A DNA stretch of 44,535 nucleotides from Chloroflexota bacterium. Its GTDB lineage: Bacteria; Chloroflexota; UBA11872; VXOZ01. Shown piece by piece: positions 4,381 to 29,024 of this stretch. Below the pieces are notes generated by a model. The model was not told the DNA's origin and searched no databases. It was given only the letters and a program-made list of their open reading frames with translations. A program made the translations under genes and the position numbers. The first letter of the stretch is position 1. Each line of letters opens with the position of its first letter. The stretch lies in contig JAPOQA010000064.1 in NCBI GenBank assembly GCA_026710945.1, forward strand, positions 1 through 44,535, read 5' to 3'.

Positions 4381-4595
4381 GCGCAGTTTGCGTTTTCCCG
4401 TCTCGTTCTTGCGTGGATTCCAAGTCTTCCACACTGGCAGGGGGAAGTCGTTGTATTAGACTCTCGTTCCCGTGCCCTGGGCTTGGTAATCAGGGCCAAT
4501 GCAAGGAACGTGCAGCAACTTGTGACTACACCTATGAAGTACGTATCATAGGAACAAGCGAAAAAACCCGCCAGGCAAGAGAAACGAGGCATACC

Positions 4596-5063: not shown

Positions 5064-5466
5064 GGGGGCGCAGGCGGACGCCAGCGGGAACAGTTGACCG
5101 TCATTCCCGCTTGCGCGGGAATCCATCTTTGCAGTGTGCTGGGCCGGAGCAATCCTGAGATGCGAGCCTCGGTTTAGGTACTTAGGGATTGTGATGCCGG
5201 TTTCGGCAATCCCGCGCCATCGCAAGGACACTGTCGTCAGTTGGAAGTTCGCAGAGCCATGCAATTGTCACCCCGAACAGAGTGCGGAGTCTAAGACGCC
5301 GCCGGTAGGGCAGCGGTGGCAGTAAGGGAGAACTCTGGATTCCTCGCTCCGCTCGGAATGACACGTGAAATGTGTCGCAGGGTTCGACATGCTGCCGCAA
5401 CGCTCCCACACCTAGGTGGCTGCTGGGTACTCACACAGAATATATATCGCCGTAGAAAGTGCCCCA
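5064..5466. other. Intergenic gap with three GTCATTCC-type palindromes
   Basis: No gene is visible. The gap holds three members of the GTCATTCC...GGAATC superfamily. One at 5100-5124 has a CCCGCTTGCGCGGG core. A diverged one lies at about 5267-5292. One in the opposite orientation lies at 5337-5362, with a CCTCGCTCCGCTCGG core. Promoter elements for hisB were not resolved. Confidence 0.75.
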
Positions 5467-23636: not shown

Positions 23637-23937
23637 CGTAACTCCTCCCTTACATAACTATCCCTCTTGCAGCGTCTCTCGCCAGCAATTCGTGCACCGT
23701 AATCCCCCTCCACGAGAGATCGCTACAGCTATGACTGTTAAGACCTTAGTGTACACGCTCCCACACGCTCGTCAAGTATGCTGATAGACCCGCCTCTAGC
23801 AAGAACCGCATCATGCAAAGTGACGGTTGGTTTCTCACAGACTGCTCGTACGGGCAGCACAATTGGACTTCGCTGTACAATGTCTCTGAGCGTCGATTCC
23901 AAACTAAATGGGCCTATTGAACATCCGATCAAAGAAC
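23637..23937. other. Divergent promoter region, importer versus restriction gene
   Basis: This gap separates two divergent genes and should hold promoters for both. The only clear signal is the GGAGGAG ribosome site for the binding protein near 23641-23647 on the minus strand. No repeat element or confident -35/-10 pair was resolved. Confidence 0.45.
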
Positions 23938-26900
23938 ATGACCGCAAGCAAACTCACCACGGCAGTTGAATCCTACCTTGCAGACTTGCGACGGATTCGT
24001 GACTCCGGCGGCGCGACTGACGAGCGCTCGCTTTACCCGCCGCTGTCTACCCTATTGAATGCCATTGGTGACACCCTTAAGCCCAAGGTATTCTGCGTGA
24101 GCGATATGGCTGAGCAGGGCGCAGGGCATCCTGACTTCGGCATCTATGTTAAGCGTCGCTCATCCGGCTCGCGCTCGAAAGCGGGCTTGAAAGCAAGCAA
24201 GAGCGATGTGCCCGAACGCGGCGTGGTCGAGGTCAAGCCCCTGAGCGACGACGCCTGGCTCACCGCCGAGAGCGCCCAGGTAAGCCGTTATTGGGAGCGC
24301 TACCGGCTCGTGTTGGTGACCAATTGCCGCGATTTCGTGCTGCTGGGGGAAGATGCGCAGGGCCGTCCCGCCAAGTTGGAGACCTTTCGTCTCGCGGCTA
24401 GCGCCGAGGAGTTTGCAGAGAGGCTGCAGACGCCACACTCCTTTGCCCGTGAGGTTGGCGCGGGATTGGGCGAGTACCTCTGCCGGGCGCTTTCACACCG
24501 GGCGGTGCTGGCCGAGCCGCGGGACCTGGCCTGGCTGCTCGCTTCTTACGCCCGCGACGGACTGGCACGGGTTGAAGCGTCGGGTGATGCGCCGTCGCTG
24601 ACGGCAGTACGCAATGCACTGGAAGAAGCGCTTGGCGTCCGTTTCGAGGGCGCAAAGGGCGCCGCGTTCTTCCGGTCAACCCTCGTGCAGACCCTCTTCT
24701 ACGGCGTCTTTTCCGCTTGGGTGCTGTGGTCGCGTCAGTTGCCGCCGCCTGCCGGCGCATTTGAATGGCGTACCGCTGTCTGGCACTTGCGCGCGCCGGT
24801 ATTGCGGGCGCTCTTTCAGCAGCTCTCCGATCCTGCCCGTCTGCAAACGCTGGGATTGGTCGAAGTGCTCAACTGGACCGCCGCCGCACTTGACCGGGTG
24901 GACAAGGAAGCCTTCTTCGCCAGTTTCAGCGAAGGCGAGGCGGTTCCCTACTTCTACGAGCCGTTCCTGGAGGCTTTCGATCCCGTGCTGCGTAAGCAAC
25001 TGGGCGTCTGGTATACACCCGTAGAGGTGGTGCGCTACATGGTGGCGCGGGTGGATAAGGCGCTGAAGGACGATCTCGGCATCGAGGACGGATTGGCGGA
25101 CGAAAGAGTCTACGTGCTCGATCCCTGCTGCGGTACCGGCGCGTATCTGGCGGAGACGCTGCGTCGCATCGCGGAGAATCTCCAAAGCCGGGGTACGGGC
25201 GTGCTCACCGGTGCGCAGGTGAAGCGGGCGGCCATGGAGCGGGTCTTCGGCTTCGAGATCATGCCCGCGCCGTTCGTGGTGGCCCACCTCCAGGTCGGGC
25301 TTACTTTGCAGTCCCTCGATGCGCCGTTAGCAGAAGACGCGCCGTCTGCGGACGGCGAGGCCGAACGCGCCGGTATGTTCCTCACCAATGCTCTCACTGG
25401 CTGGGAGCCGAAGACGCAGAAGCCGCTGCCCTTTCCCGAATTGGAGCAAGAGCGCGAGCGCGCCGACCGGGTGAAGCAGGACGCGCCTATTCTGGTGGTG
25501 CTCGGCAATCCGCCCTACAACGGCTATGCGGGCATGGCGGTGGACGAGGAACGCGAACTCTCGGAGGCCTATCGCACCACGAAGCGCGTGCGCCGTCCCG
25601 AAGGCCAGGGGCTGAACGACCTCTACGTCCGTTTCTTCCGCATGGCCGAACGCCGCATCGCCGAGAAGACCGGCCAAGGCATCGTCTGCTTCATCTCCAA
25701 TTACTCTTGGCTCGAAGGCCTCTCCTTCACCGGCATGAGAGAACGCTACCTGGAGGCGTTCGACACCATTCGCATCGACTGCCTGAACGGCGATAAGTAC
25801 AAGACCGGCAAGACGACGCCGGATGGCGCGCCCGATCCCAGCATCTTCTCCACGCCGGAGGACCCGGTCGGCATCCAGGTCGGCACCGCCATCACGACTC
25901 TGGTGCGCAAGGCCGACCACACTCCGACCGAGCACGTAGCCTTCCGCCACCTCTGGGGCCAGGCCAAGCGCACGGCACTATTAGAAACAGCGGAAACGGA
26001 ACCGGAGGCGCTATATGAATCCGCCTCGCCGCTCCTGCCGCTGGGCCTGCCTTTCGCGCCTACGGCGGTAAGCCAAGACTGGTTCGACTGGCCCGCGCTG
26101 CCCGATCTCTTCCCGGCCTCGTTTCCGGGAGTGCAGACTGGCCATGATCCGTTTCTGGTTGAGGTTGATCTTGGTCGGCTGAAAGCGCGTATCGCAGATT
26201 ACTTCAATGCGAAACTCGGCCATGAGGAGATCGCAGGGCGTTTTCCTTCTATCATGCAAACTGTGCAACACTTTGATGGCAGGTCAAAGCGTGACATACT
26301 GCTCAATCGTGGTGGCCCCAGCGAGGCAGGCTTCGTGAAATTTGCCTATCGTCCGTTTGATGTTCGCTGGCTCTACTGGGAATCGGACAGTGGTCTGCTC
26401 AATCGTCCTCGTGCTGAATATATGCCGCATGTGTTCGAGGGGAATGTGTGGCTCTCATCGGCACAGCATCTACGAAAAGGCGAGACGCAGCCCCAAGCTT
26501 GGTTTACTCGGCCCATTTGCTCCATGCACATGATCGAGCGGGGCACCAGCATGTTTCCCGCTTGGCTCCGCGACACCGGCTTGGGTGCTGATGAAACCGG
26601 CGTACAGCGTATTCCCAATCTCTCGCCCGCCGCGCAACGCTACCTCGACCGTCTCGGCCTGGGCGTGGAAGACCTCTTCTACCACACGCTCGCCGTGCTC
26701 CACGATCCCAGTTACCGAGAAGCCAACGCCGGCGCTCTGCGCATGGAGTGGCCGCGTATCCCGTTGCCCGGCTGGCCTGAGTTATCCGCCTCGTCCCCCG
26801 CTGGTAGGGGCGGTTCGCGAACCGCCCCTACGGTCGCGCTACATACGGATGCGCCTGCCGCGGACCACTCCGTCGTTCCCGTGAAAACTCGCCCCGTGCC

Positions 26901-27600
26901 GGGGCGCGGAATCCATCCGGCCTCCGATGCGGCGGACATCTTGGCCGCCTCCGCCGCCCGGGGCCGGCAACTGGCCCACCTCCTCGACTCCGACACCCCC
27001 GTGCCCGGCGTCACCACAAGCGACCTGCGGCCTGAGATAGTCGCCATCGCCCAGCCCGCCACCACCGACGACCGCAACATGACCGGCGACGACTTCGGCC
27101 TCACCGCCGGCTGGGGGCACTATGGCAGCGGCGAAGCCGTCATGCCCGGCCAGGGCAAAGCAATCGAGCGCGCCTACACCCCTGCCGAATGCGACGCCCT
27201 GCCTTCCCGTCATTCCGGCGCAAGCCGGAATCCAGAGCTCCCCAGCCAGCCCAAACCACTGCGACAGGGAGAGACCACTAACCGCGCCCCGGAATCCGTC
27301 TCAGCCGCGTCCGTCCTCGGCGAGACCACCTACGACATCTACCTCAACGACCGCGCCTACTGGCGCAACGTCCCCGCCAACGTCTGGCACTACAAACTCG
27401 GCGGCTACCAAGTCCTCAAGAAATGGCTCTCCTACCGCGAACAAACGGTCCTAGGCCGCCCCCTCAAGCCGGAAGAGGTGCAACACTTCACCGACACCGC
27501 CAGACGCATCGGGGCTATACTGCTGCTTACAAAGAGAATCATACCTATAGTCAAGGATAGGGAGGCTGACACGCATGGGTATGGCACGAAGTCTAGCTGA
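23938..27600 (+). CDS. Single-chain restriction-modification enzyme (type IIG/ISP-like)
   Basis: A 1,220-residue protein that should cut and adenine-methylate DNA. Seen: a PD-(D/E)xK nuclease signature near the N-terminus (HPDFGIY, D66; then GVVEVKP, E98 and K100), a helical linker, the LGVWYTPVEVVRYM segment found ahead of the methylase in such enzymes, motif I DPCCGTGAYL (from 395), motif IV NPPY (524), and a C-terminal domain ending YQVLKKWLSYRE, as in type ISP specificity domains. No helicase motifs are present, so it is not a full type ISP enzyme. Residues about 956-1099 are an odd Pro/Ala-rich stretch carrying three genomic palindromes in frame. An ATG at 23908 is an alternative start; neither start has a strong ribosome site. 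Confidence 0.85.
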   Translation: MTASKLTTAVESYLADLRRIRDSGGATDERSLYPPLSTLLNAIGDTLKPKVFCVSDMAEQGAGHPDFGIYVKRRSSGSRSKAGLKASKSDVPERGVVEVKPLSDDAWLTAESAQVSRYWERYRLVLVTNCRDFVLLGEDAQGRPAKLETFRLAASAEEFAERLQTPHSFAREVGAGLGEYLCRALSHRAVLAEPRDLAWLLASYARDGLARVEASGDAPSLTAVRNALEEALGVRFEGAKGAAFFRSTLVQTLFYGVFSAWVLWSRQLPPPAGAFEWRTAVWHLRAPVLRALFQQLSDPARLQTLGLVEVLNWTAAALDRVDKEAFFASFSEGEAVPYFYEPFLEAFDPVLRKQLGVWYTPVEVVRYMVARVDKALKDDLGIEDGLADERVYVLDPCCGTGAYLAETLRRIAENLQSRGTGVLTGAQVKRAAMERVFGFEIMPAPFVVAHLQVGLTLQSLDAPLAEDAPSADGEAERAGMFLTNALTGWEPKTQKPLPFPELEQERERADRVKQDAPILVVLGNPPYNGYAGMAVDEERELSEAYRTTKRVRRPEGQGLNDLYVRFFRMAERRIAEKTGQGIVCFISNYSWLEGLSFTGMRERYLEAFDTIRIDCLNGDKYKTGKTTPDGAPDPSIFSTPEDPVGIQVGTAITTLVRKADHTPTEHVAFRHLWGQAKRTALLETAETEPEALYESASPLLPLGLPFAPTAVSQDWFDWPALPDLFPASFPGVQTGHDPFLVEVDLGRLKARIADYFNAKLGHEEIAGRFPSIMQTVQHFDGRSKRDILLNRGGPSEAGFVKFAYRPFDVRWLYWESDSGLLNRPRAEYMPHVFEGNVWLSSAQHLRKGETQPQAWFTRPICSMHMIERGTSMFPAWLRDTGLGADETGVQRIPNLSPAAQRYLDRLGLGVEDLFYHTLAVLHDPSYREANAGALRMEWPRIPLPGWPELSASSPAGRGGSRTAPTVALHTDAPAADHSVVPVKTRPVPGRGIHPASDAADILAASAARGRQLAHLLDSDTPVPGVTTSDLRPEIVAIAQPATTDDRNMTGDDFGLTAGWGHYGSGEAVMPGQGKAIERAYTPAECDALPSRHSGASRNPELPSQPKPLRQGETTNRAPESVSAASVLGETTYDIYLNDRAYWRNVPANVWHYKLGGYQVLKKWLSYREQTVLGRPLKPEEVQHFTDTARRIGAILLLTKRIIPIVKDREADTHGYGTKSS
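26804..26831. repeat. Perfect 28-bp palindrome inside the restriction gene
   Basis: Two 14-base arms (GTAGGGGCGGTTCG and its complement) meet with no loop. Sequences of this form are familiar as dispersed intergenic repeats in several bacterial groups. Here it is translated in frame as part of the linker of the restriction-modification protein. Confidence 0.85.
26872..26914. repeat. GTCATTCC-superfamily palindrome inside the restriction gene
   Basis: This copy has the constant ends of the family (GTCGTTCC at the left, GGAATCC at the right) and an inner hairpin GCCCCG/CGGGGC. It is the opposite-orientation relative of the intergenic copies at 2736, 2937 and 32079. It is translated in frame. 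Confidence 0.8.
27209..27233. repeat. GTCATTCC...GGAATCC palindrome inside the restriction gene
   Basis: Eight-base arms ATTCCGGC/GCCGGAAT with a four-base loop lie between the constant ends. In this frame the repeat encodes SRHSGASRNPE, the peptide produced when this intergenic repeat is translated. The nearest relative here is at 36659-36682, in reverse orientation. Confidence 0.85.
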
Positions 27601-27851: not shown

Positions 27852-29024
27852 ATGAACCCCTTTGACTGGTTACTTCATCCTCGCCAGACCACGGCTAATT
27901 TGCGTCGACGACTCCGCCGTGACCGCATACACATCAAGGTTTGGCTTGGCTGGGTTATTCTGCTTGTCTTGGTAGCCGTTGCCGTAGTCGCTACCGTTGT
28001 GTTCTGGGGCTGGATTAGCAACGATCTCTGGACTTGGCTGGGCACCACACTAGGCGGGCAGGAAAGACTAGAATCCAACTCTACAACTCTCCGCAATGTC
28101 GGGTTGTTGATTGCGGGGGCAATCGCGGTTCCACTTGCCGTGTGGCGCAGCATCGTGGCCCAGCGACAGGCCAAAACGGCGCAACAAGACCTGTTGAATG
28201 ACCGCTATCAGAAAGGCGCGGAGATGCTCGGCAACGAGGTCCTCTCGGTACGCTTGGGCGGTATCTACGCGCTGCAACGCCTGGCGGAGGAACATCCGGA
28301 GCAATACCACATCCAGATCATGCGGCTATTCTGCGCTTTCGTGCGTAGTCCCACTATGTATAATGGCTCCGAAACCAAAGAGGAACTGATGAGGACCAAG
28401 TCAGACACTGAGGAAACTCGGGGAGACAAAAGACCACAGTTGCCAGAAGACGTCAAAGCGATCATGGAGGCGATCCGTGTGCGCAGTAAGAAGAACATTG
28501 CACTTGAACAGAAATCGGAGTTTAAACTGACCTCATACCGTGGTCCCCTCCTAGAAATGGATACTCCCGAGGAGAGCTTTCAAGATCTCCAACTCCGATT
28601 TGCAAGTCTTTCTGGCGCAGACCTTCGCGGCGTAGATCTATACGGCACGGACCTACGAGGCATAGACCTGCGTGACTCAAAGCTCCAAGGCGCAACCTTA
28701 GTCGGTGCTAACCTAAGTGGTGTGAAATTGTCCAAGGCGAAACTGTCGAGGGCGAAGCTTGTGGTGGCAAAACTGTCTTTTGCCGATCTGTCTGGTGCCA
28801 AGCTTCGGGGTGCAAACTTATTTGGCGCAGGCTTCTTAGTTACTAACCTTCAAGAGGCGGACCTGTCTGGCGCGAACATCCAGAATGCTGAGATGCTGAC
28901 ACAGAAGCAATTGGATGAAGCGTGTGCAGATCCCGGCAACCCACCACAACTGATAGACGCCGTTGACTACATTTCTGGCAAGCTGCTAGTGTGGCGTGGC
29001 AAGCCGCTCGACGACGAGGCATAG
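27852..29024 (+). CDS. Membrane-anchored pentapeptide-repeat protein
   Basis: A 390-residue protein. Residues about 33-55 (WVILLVLVAVAVVATVVFWGWI) and 80-98 (VGLLIAGAIAVPLAVW) form two membrane helices. A cytosolic segment (RYQKGAEMLGNEVLSVRLGGIYALQRLA) common in such membrane pentapeptide proteins follows, then a charged linker. Roughly 20 A(D/N/K)LxG pentapeptides fill about residues 250-350 and should form a quadrilateral beta-helix. This fold can mimic DNA or act as a protein-binding platform. No enzymatic motif is visible. It appears to be the last gene of the operon with the restriction enzyme and the small membrane protein, so a linked role is possible but not shown. Confidence 0.87.
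   Translation: MNPFDWLLHPRQTTANLRRRLRRDRIHIKVWLGWVILLVLVAVAVVATVVFWGWISNDLWTWLGTTLGGQERLESNSTTLRNVGLLIAGAIAVPLAVWRSIVAQRQAKTAQQDLLNDRYQKGAEMLGNEVLSVRLGGIYALQRLAEEHPEQYHIQIMRLFCAFVRSPTMYNGSETKEELMRTKSDTEETRGDKRPQLPEDVKAIMEAIRVRSKKNIALEQKSEFKLTSYRGPLLEMDTPEESFQDLQLRFASLSGADLRGVDLYGTDLRGIDLRDSKLQGATLVGANLSGVKLSKAKLSRAKLVVAKLSFADLSGAKLRGANLFGAGFLVTNLQEADLSGANIQNAEMLTQKQLDEACADPGNPPQLIDAVDYISGKLLVWRGKPLDDEA

Follow-up and report, generated by a model that had tools for sequence, protein, structure and literature searches.

In the 44,535-nucleotide stretch of DNA analyzed here (the window), a type IIG restriction-modification gene that appears to be intact has very probably taken up REPs of three families, in frame, in two length-tolerant loops. 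Direct observation covers the repeats with their copies elsewhere in the genome, the conservation of the flanks, homologues in which the sites are empty, and the different repeat families at the same loops in other genera. With regards to the mechanism, the C-terminal region would comprise two length-tolerant loops on either side of a conserved block, and short dispersed REPs of the three families would have been inserted into both of them. Insertions that preserved the frame would then have persisted owing to the tolerance of the loops for additional residues. The features are summarized in Table 1.

Table 1. Features of the restriction-modification gene and its repeats in the window
Feature	Window position	Strand	Residues	Basis or content
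Type IIG-like restriction-modification enzyme	23908..27600	+	1230 aa	Motifs, Pfam, PADLOC
Enzyme motifs			73-78; 106-111; 405-411; 534-538	GHPDFG; VVEVKP; DPCCGTG; NPPYN
Hypervariable specificity (TRD) region	26005..26607	+	~700-900	Nucleotide identity drop between relatives
Permissive loop 1	26779..26928	+	~958-1007	50 residues here, 6 in L040/L042
Element 1, perfect 28-bp "double-foot" GTAG REP	26804..26831	+	966-975	Reads GRGGSRTAPT
Element 2, composite CGTC-headed ~48-bp repeat with nested hairpin	about 26870..26915	+	988-1004	Within SVVPVKTRPVPGRGIHP
Conserved block between the loops, ancestral	26929..27201	+	1008-1098	Homologue alignment
Permissive loop 2	27202..27312	+	~1099-1135	Empty in L008, L023, L009, L011 and most of g5
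Element 3, CGTC-1 REP	27208..27234	+	within SRHSGASRNPE (1100-1110)	CGTC, ATTCCGGC, GCAA, GCCGGAAT, CCA
Conserved C-terminal block	27313..27537	+	~1136-1210	Homologue alignment

The host gene and its genome

The window is contig C64 of a 3.52-Mb genome (G000, 98.4% complete), and the nearest named relatives of this genome are Chloroflexota metagenome-assembled genomes. Two of them are labelled RHO3 and COS2 and, going by these labels alone, may be associated with sponges. As all named relatives are metagenome assemblies, an assembly or binning artefact has to be considered. However, the GTAG and composite elements of loop 1 recur in the separate genomes G000, G001 and G003, whose other sequence has diverged, and an artefact is therefore highly improbable.

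The frame is open over all 1230 codons, and its product combines an N-terminal PD-(D/E)XK-like motif, an N6-adenine methyltransferase and a Type_ISP_C specificity domain. Pfam matches were obtained for N6_Mtase, Eco57I and Type_ISP_C, and the PADLOC match was REase_MTase_IIG (E 7e-85). Nuclease, methyltransferase and specificity domain are thus united in a single chain, as in type IIG enzymes, with the nuclease assigned from its motif only. Profile searches returned no helicase family match, only Type_ISP_C and the methyltransferase. The helicase-like ATPase that separates nuclease and methyltransferase in type ISP enzymes such as LlaBIII was not found, so the enzyme is called type IIG-like and not type ISP. 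No relative was found among viral contigs. The reading frame extends about 20 residues beyond the conserved C-terminus, and a pentapeptide-repeat protein (PF00805) is encoded downstream at 27852-29024.

Two loops and the repeats they carry

The alignment covered orthologues at the level of genus, class and phylum, down to 41-48% identity. Relative to the shortest homologues (L040 and L042), about 44 residues are added in loop 1, which is bounded by PGWP and the AA..LAAS helix. Loop 2, bounded by AL and LGETTY, exceeds its shortest counterparts by about 31. The total addition is approximately 75 residues at two sites; about 36 of them are encoded by repeats, and large parts of both inserts are spacer that shows no identity to a repeat. 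Empty or minimal loops were found in L040, L042, L024-L026 and genus g5. L040 and L042 are close orthologues from metagenome-assembled genomes labelled Rhodobacteraceae and Gemmatimonadetes, which points to either horizontal transfer or misbinning. A low-confidence AlphaFold model of the C-terminal region (overall pLDDT 54) gave values of 30-42 for loop 1, about 40-43 for loop 2 and 67-75 for parts of the flanks, while the full-length model reached a pLDDT of 34. Both loops may be surface-exposed and disordered, for which these models give weak support.

The first-pass annotation had proposed a single linker that had gained 100-150 residues. Instead, two loops (+44 and +31) flank residues 1008-1098, which are kept in all aligned homologues including the relatives at 41-48% identity. 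Over this block, distant homologues do have the same residues without palindromes, and the part of the originally marked segment (residues 956-1099) that it covers is truly ancestral; for the two loops they do not. It would be conceivable to extend this finding to the entire segment, with the palindromes arising from chance or codon bias in ancestral protein sequence. However, homologues lack the two loops or have them in minimal form, exact copies of the elements occur throughout the genome, and a 14-bp palindrome arm was reached in 0 of 1000 synonymous shuffles. The empty-site homologues together with the dispersed copies already refute an ancestral origin for both loops, and as an account of the segment it is hardly credible. 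Palindromic repeats that are missing from homologues while the frame is kept, as found here, are what characterizes Rickettsia-type in-frame insertion, and the C-terminus still aligns with homologues past the repeats, in line with the earlier statement that this domain continues normally.

Element 1 reads GTAGGGGCGGTTCGCGAACCGCCCCTAC, starting with GTAG and ending with CTAC, and this combination on a long hairpin identifies it as a double-foot GTAG REP. No other perfect palindrome in the window has arms of at least 9 bp, and when the synonymous codons of the gene were shuffled 1000 times, the longest arm was 11 bp, compared with 14 bp in the element. The genome holds 7 exact copies and 14 in total at up to 3 mismatches (reversed control: 0), and as single-stranded DNA the element folds better than shuffled sequences (z -5.25). 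The perfect 28-bp palindrome noticed at first reading was therefore borne out, with copies elsewhere in the genome and no equal in any shuffle.

A candidate for the mobilization of this element is encoded in the same genome. The open reading frame L083:955-1524 resembles a REP-associated tyrosine transposase (NF047646, E 7e-18, 64.9 bits, below the cutoff of 80) and holds the identical palindrome in the identical reading frame just after the HUH motif, in the order PNHLHG, GRGGSRTAPT and WQ..YIHDNP. A truncated tandem copy behind it bears the same palindrome (the two together span L083:955-1806), and transposases of other Chloroflexota have other GTAG-headed palindromes at the same post-HUH place. 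The GTAG element was thus probably spread by a TnpA_REP/RAYT transposase of a subclass-2.4-like type. In the REP-type transposases L114, L115 and L117, the post-HUH loop carries repeated palindromes that encode VGAPLVGA. Movement of the whole loop-1 insert as one mobile unit found no support in genome G000, where further copies exist of the individual elements only.

Element 2 (26868-26917 in the family alignment) belongs to a separate dispersed family with eight other aligned genome copies at 82-96% identity. It contains a nested GC-rich hairpin in place of the 8-bp stem and 4-nt loop of CGTC-1 repeats, and its single strand folds better than shuffles (z -2.42). Element 3 has the complete CGTC-1 architecture, namely a CGTC head, an 8-bp stem starting from AT, a 4-nt loop and a CCA tail. 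It matches the repeat pattern with 0 mismatches (0.00 expected in shuffles), belongs to a family of 164 genome copies (control: 0) and also folds better than shuffles as a single strand (z -4.51). The family is high-copy, dispersed and mainly extragenic, as 1 of 30 sampled exact copies was clearly intragenic; the other copies of this pattern in the window, at 5100 and 36658, both lie beyond the restriction gene. Of the two GTCATTCC...GGAATCC copies originally assigned to the gene, only the last one holds, whereas the middle element represents the separate ~48-bp family. The open frame and the reading of the last copy as SRHSGASRNPE were confirmed.

The genome contains a second case of in-frame REPs, in a gene for a 3-hydroxyacyl-CoA dehydrogenase/enoyl-CoA hydratase of fatty-acid oxidation (L054:2-2131), where CGTC repeats, apparently paired, lie near residues 499-550; this gene accounts for the one clearly intragenic copy among the 30 sampled. 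Hairpins of the type CCCTCTCCC...GGGAGAGGG form a further dispersed repeat family with 102 copies across genome G000.

Recurrence, specificity and selection

Within the genus, elements 1 and 2 are common to the window gene, L007 and L023, the last with one additional CGTC repeat, and the sole repeat of L008 is a plain CGTC one. In genus g3, loop 1 holds an inverted CGTC pair (L009/L011) or GTAG palindromes (L044/L017), and loop 2 holds CCCTCTCCC...GGGAGAGGG hairpins (L012 and L017). L010 of genus g9 combines a CGTC repeat and a CCCTCTCCC hairpin in loop 1 with two CGTC repeats in loop 2. Across 27 scanned relatives, the in-gene copies were confined to loops 1 and 2 with one exception in L021; this count leaves out matches upstream of the start (L009/L011) and a weak match at the 5' end of L024. 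The exception is a third loop at codons ~215-230 with an in-frame CCCTCTCCC-type repeat (DPSPQPSPPGEG). On a core-gene tree built without the loops and without the TRD, at least 4 presence changes were required at each loop, and 6 at loop 1 if repeat types are distinguished.

Inserts were present in 10 of 11 genes from repeat-rich genera compared to none of 12 from the repeat-poor genus g5, where one gene is truncated by a contig end. CGTC copies numbered 31-264 per genome in the insert-bearing genera and 0-10, mostly 0, in g5. The g5 orthologues have no repeats in their loops, and CCCTCTCCC hairpins do occur in g5 genomes. Although the association (10/11 versus 0/12) looks strong in the Fisher test, the tree yields one phylogenetically independent contrast, and the association is therefore descriptive.

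Between L006 and L007, loop 1 (window 26788-26919) shows 0 synonymous changes in approximately 40 sites, compared to 0.41 gene-wide. This would not be predicted if a neutral insert had simply been inherited vertically, and it suggests either recent exchange or a constraint at the DNA level. An adaptive role of the insertions, in which longer linkers beside the specificity domain tune recognition or the DNA/RNA hairpins are regulatory, could draw on this near-invariance between two species as well as on the repeated hits at the same loops across genera. However, the repeats belong to different families, vary in length and encode different peptides, tolerance alone would predict recurrence, and g5 orthologues without loop repeats show the same variation in specificity, so that we regard an adaptive role as very improbable. 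Equally improbable is that the loops go beyond tolerating insertions and are preferred landing pads, with insertion promoted, for instance, by exposure as a single strand or by selection on linker length. If this were true, mobile repeats would repeatedly reshape a defence enzyme, and the near-invariance of the loop-1 DNA would result from a recent transfer of the segment with the repeats or from its concerted evolution.

The suggestion that the repeats may alter specificity found no support, as the TRD lies outside both loops and swaps equally in a genus without loop repeats. Between relatives whose nucleotide identity is otherwise 0.8-1.0, the value drops to 0.41-0.71 in the TRD. L018 and L043 both lack loop repeats; they share 94-100% identity up to residue 675 and 51-64% at 751-900, a clean specificity-domain swap at residues ~700-900. 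Since the TRD lies elsewhere and this swap occurred without repeats, the loop repeats are neither required for nor located at the specificity changes, and they were ruled out as drivers of specificity-domain swapping.

The nuclease and methyltransferase motifs of the window gene are intact and invariant in the alignment, and the L006-L007 comparison gave a dN/dS of 0.21 for the whole gene and 0.12 for the catalytic (nuclease/methyltransferase) half. On this sequence evidence, the gene is under purifying selection and has therefore been kept, and the enzyme is probably still active. Some relatives, by comparison, are broken. L010 has an in-frame TGA within its loop-1 repeat (L010:4441-4443), L015 has a frameshift adjoining loop 1 near 4554 (reverse strand), both in assemblies where sequencing error is possible, and in G002 only a fused N/C-terminal remnant (listed as L032) is left. 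These cases are what a reading of the window gene as inactivated by its insertions and decaying would build on; against it stand the full-length frame, the invariant active-site motifs and the dN/dS values, which make decay of this gene very unlikely. The initial notion that the repeats may inactivate the enzyme finds no support in the window gene, but L010 and L015 are both broken at or near loop 1, so inactivation is a real hazard of that site.

Comparison with known systems

Among solved structures, 7lo5, LlaBIII (4xqk) and LlaGI (5ffj) come closest to the window enzyme and can be aligned with it over the methyltransferase and the C-terminal specificity region. The main alignment stops at or just past loop 1. 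Unlike the window enzyme, which has no helicase match, LlaBIII-type ISP enzymes have a helicase-like ATPase.

Quentin 2018 (PMC6006769) described double-foot REPs that are inserted in their own transposase gene for subclass 2.4 TnpA_REP. Our candidate transposase shares with this subclass the GTAG...CTAC ends, the in-frame palindrome between the HuH and Y motifs and signatures of the NHxH / WQ / YIxxNP type. In contrast to the subclass described, the palindrome is here additionally found within an unrelated host gene.

In-frame intragenic GTAG and CGTC REPs, including Rickettsia RPE-4 and RPE-6, are described in the main text of Di Nocera 2013 (PMC3733652), and the window gene presents the same repeat superfamilies and the same in-frame genic insertion; REPs in frame are known from many genes. 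According to that text, the targets are often DNA repair or replication genes, two Xanthomonas species have differing REPs at about one position of recB, no transposase is known for CGTC elements, and the CGTC-1 family is equated with Neisseria dRS3 and Rickettsia RPE-6. As element 3 fits CGTC-1, the first-pass comparison with tolerated Rickettsia palindromic elements was well chosen. It also shares its architecture with dRS3, but dRS3 is described there as mostly clustered, whereas the Chloroflexota CGTC copies are spread across many contigs. The passages of PMC3733652 considered here name no restriction-modification target for in-frame REPs ("restriction" has 0 matches in the main text), nor do they give a case of two loops that hold four types of repeat in several genera of Chloroflexota.

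CGTC-1 and double-foot GTAG repeats have now been seen in this Chloroflexota class, and those extra residues of the enzyme that are mobile DNA are marked and should not be taken for functional domains. Among its relatives, the two loops of this one enzyme range from empty to single, double and mixed repeat inserts, broken members included, a natural series by which the tolerance of proteins to mobile repeats becomes measurable. Compared with the systems above, the restriction enzyme is not a new enzyme but a rich and clear new example of a known phenomenon, the in-frame insertion of REPs.
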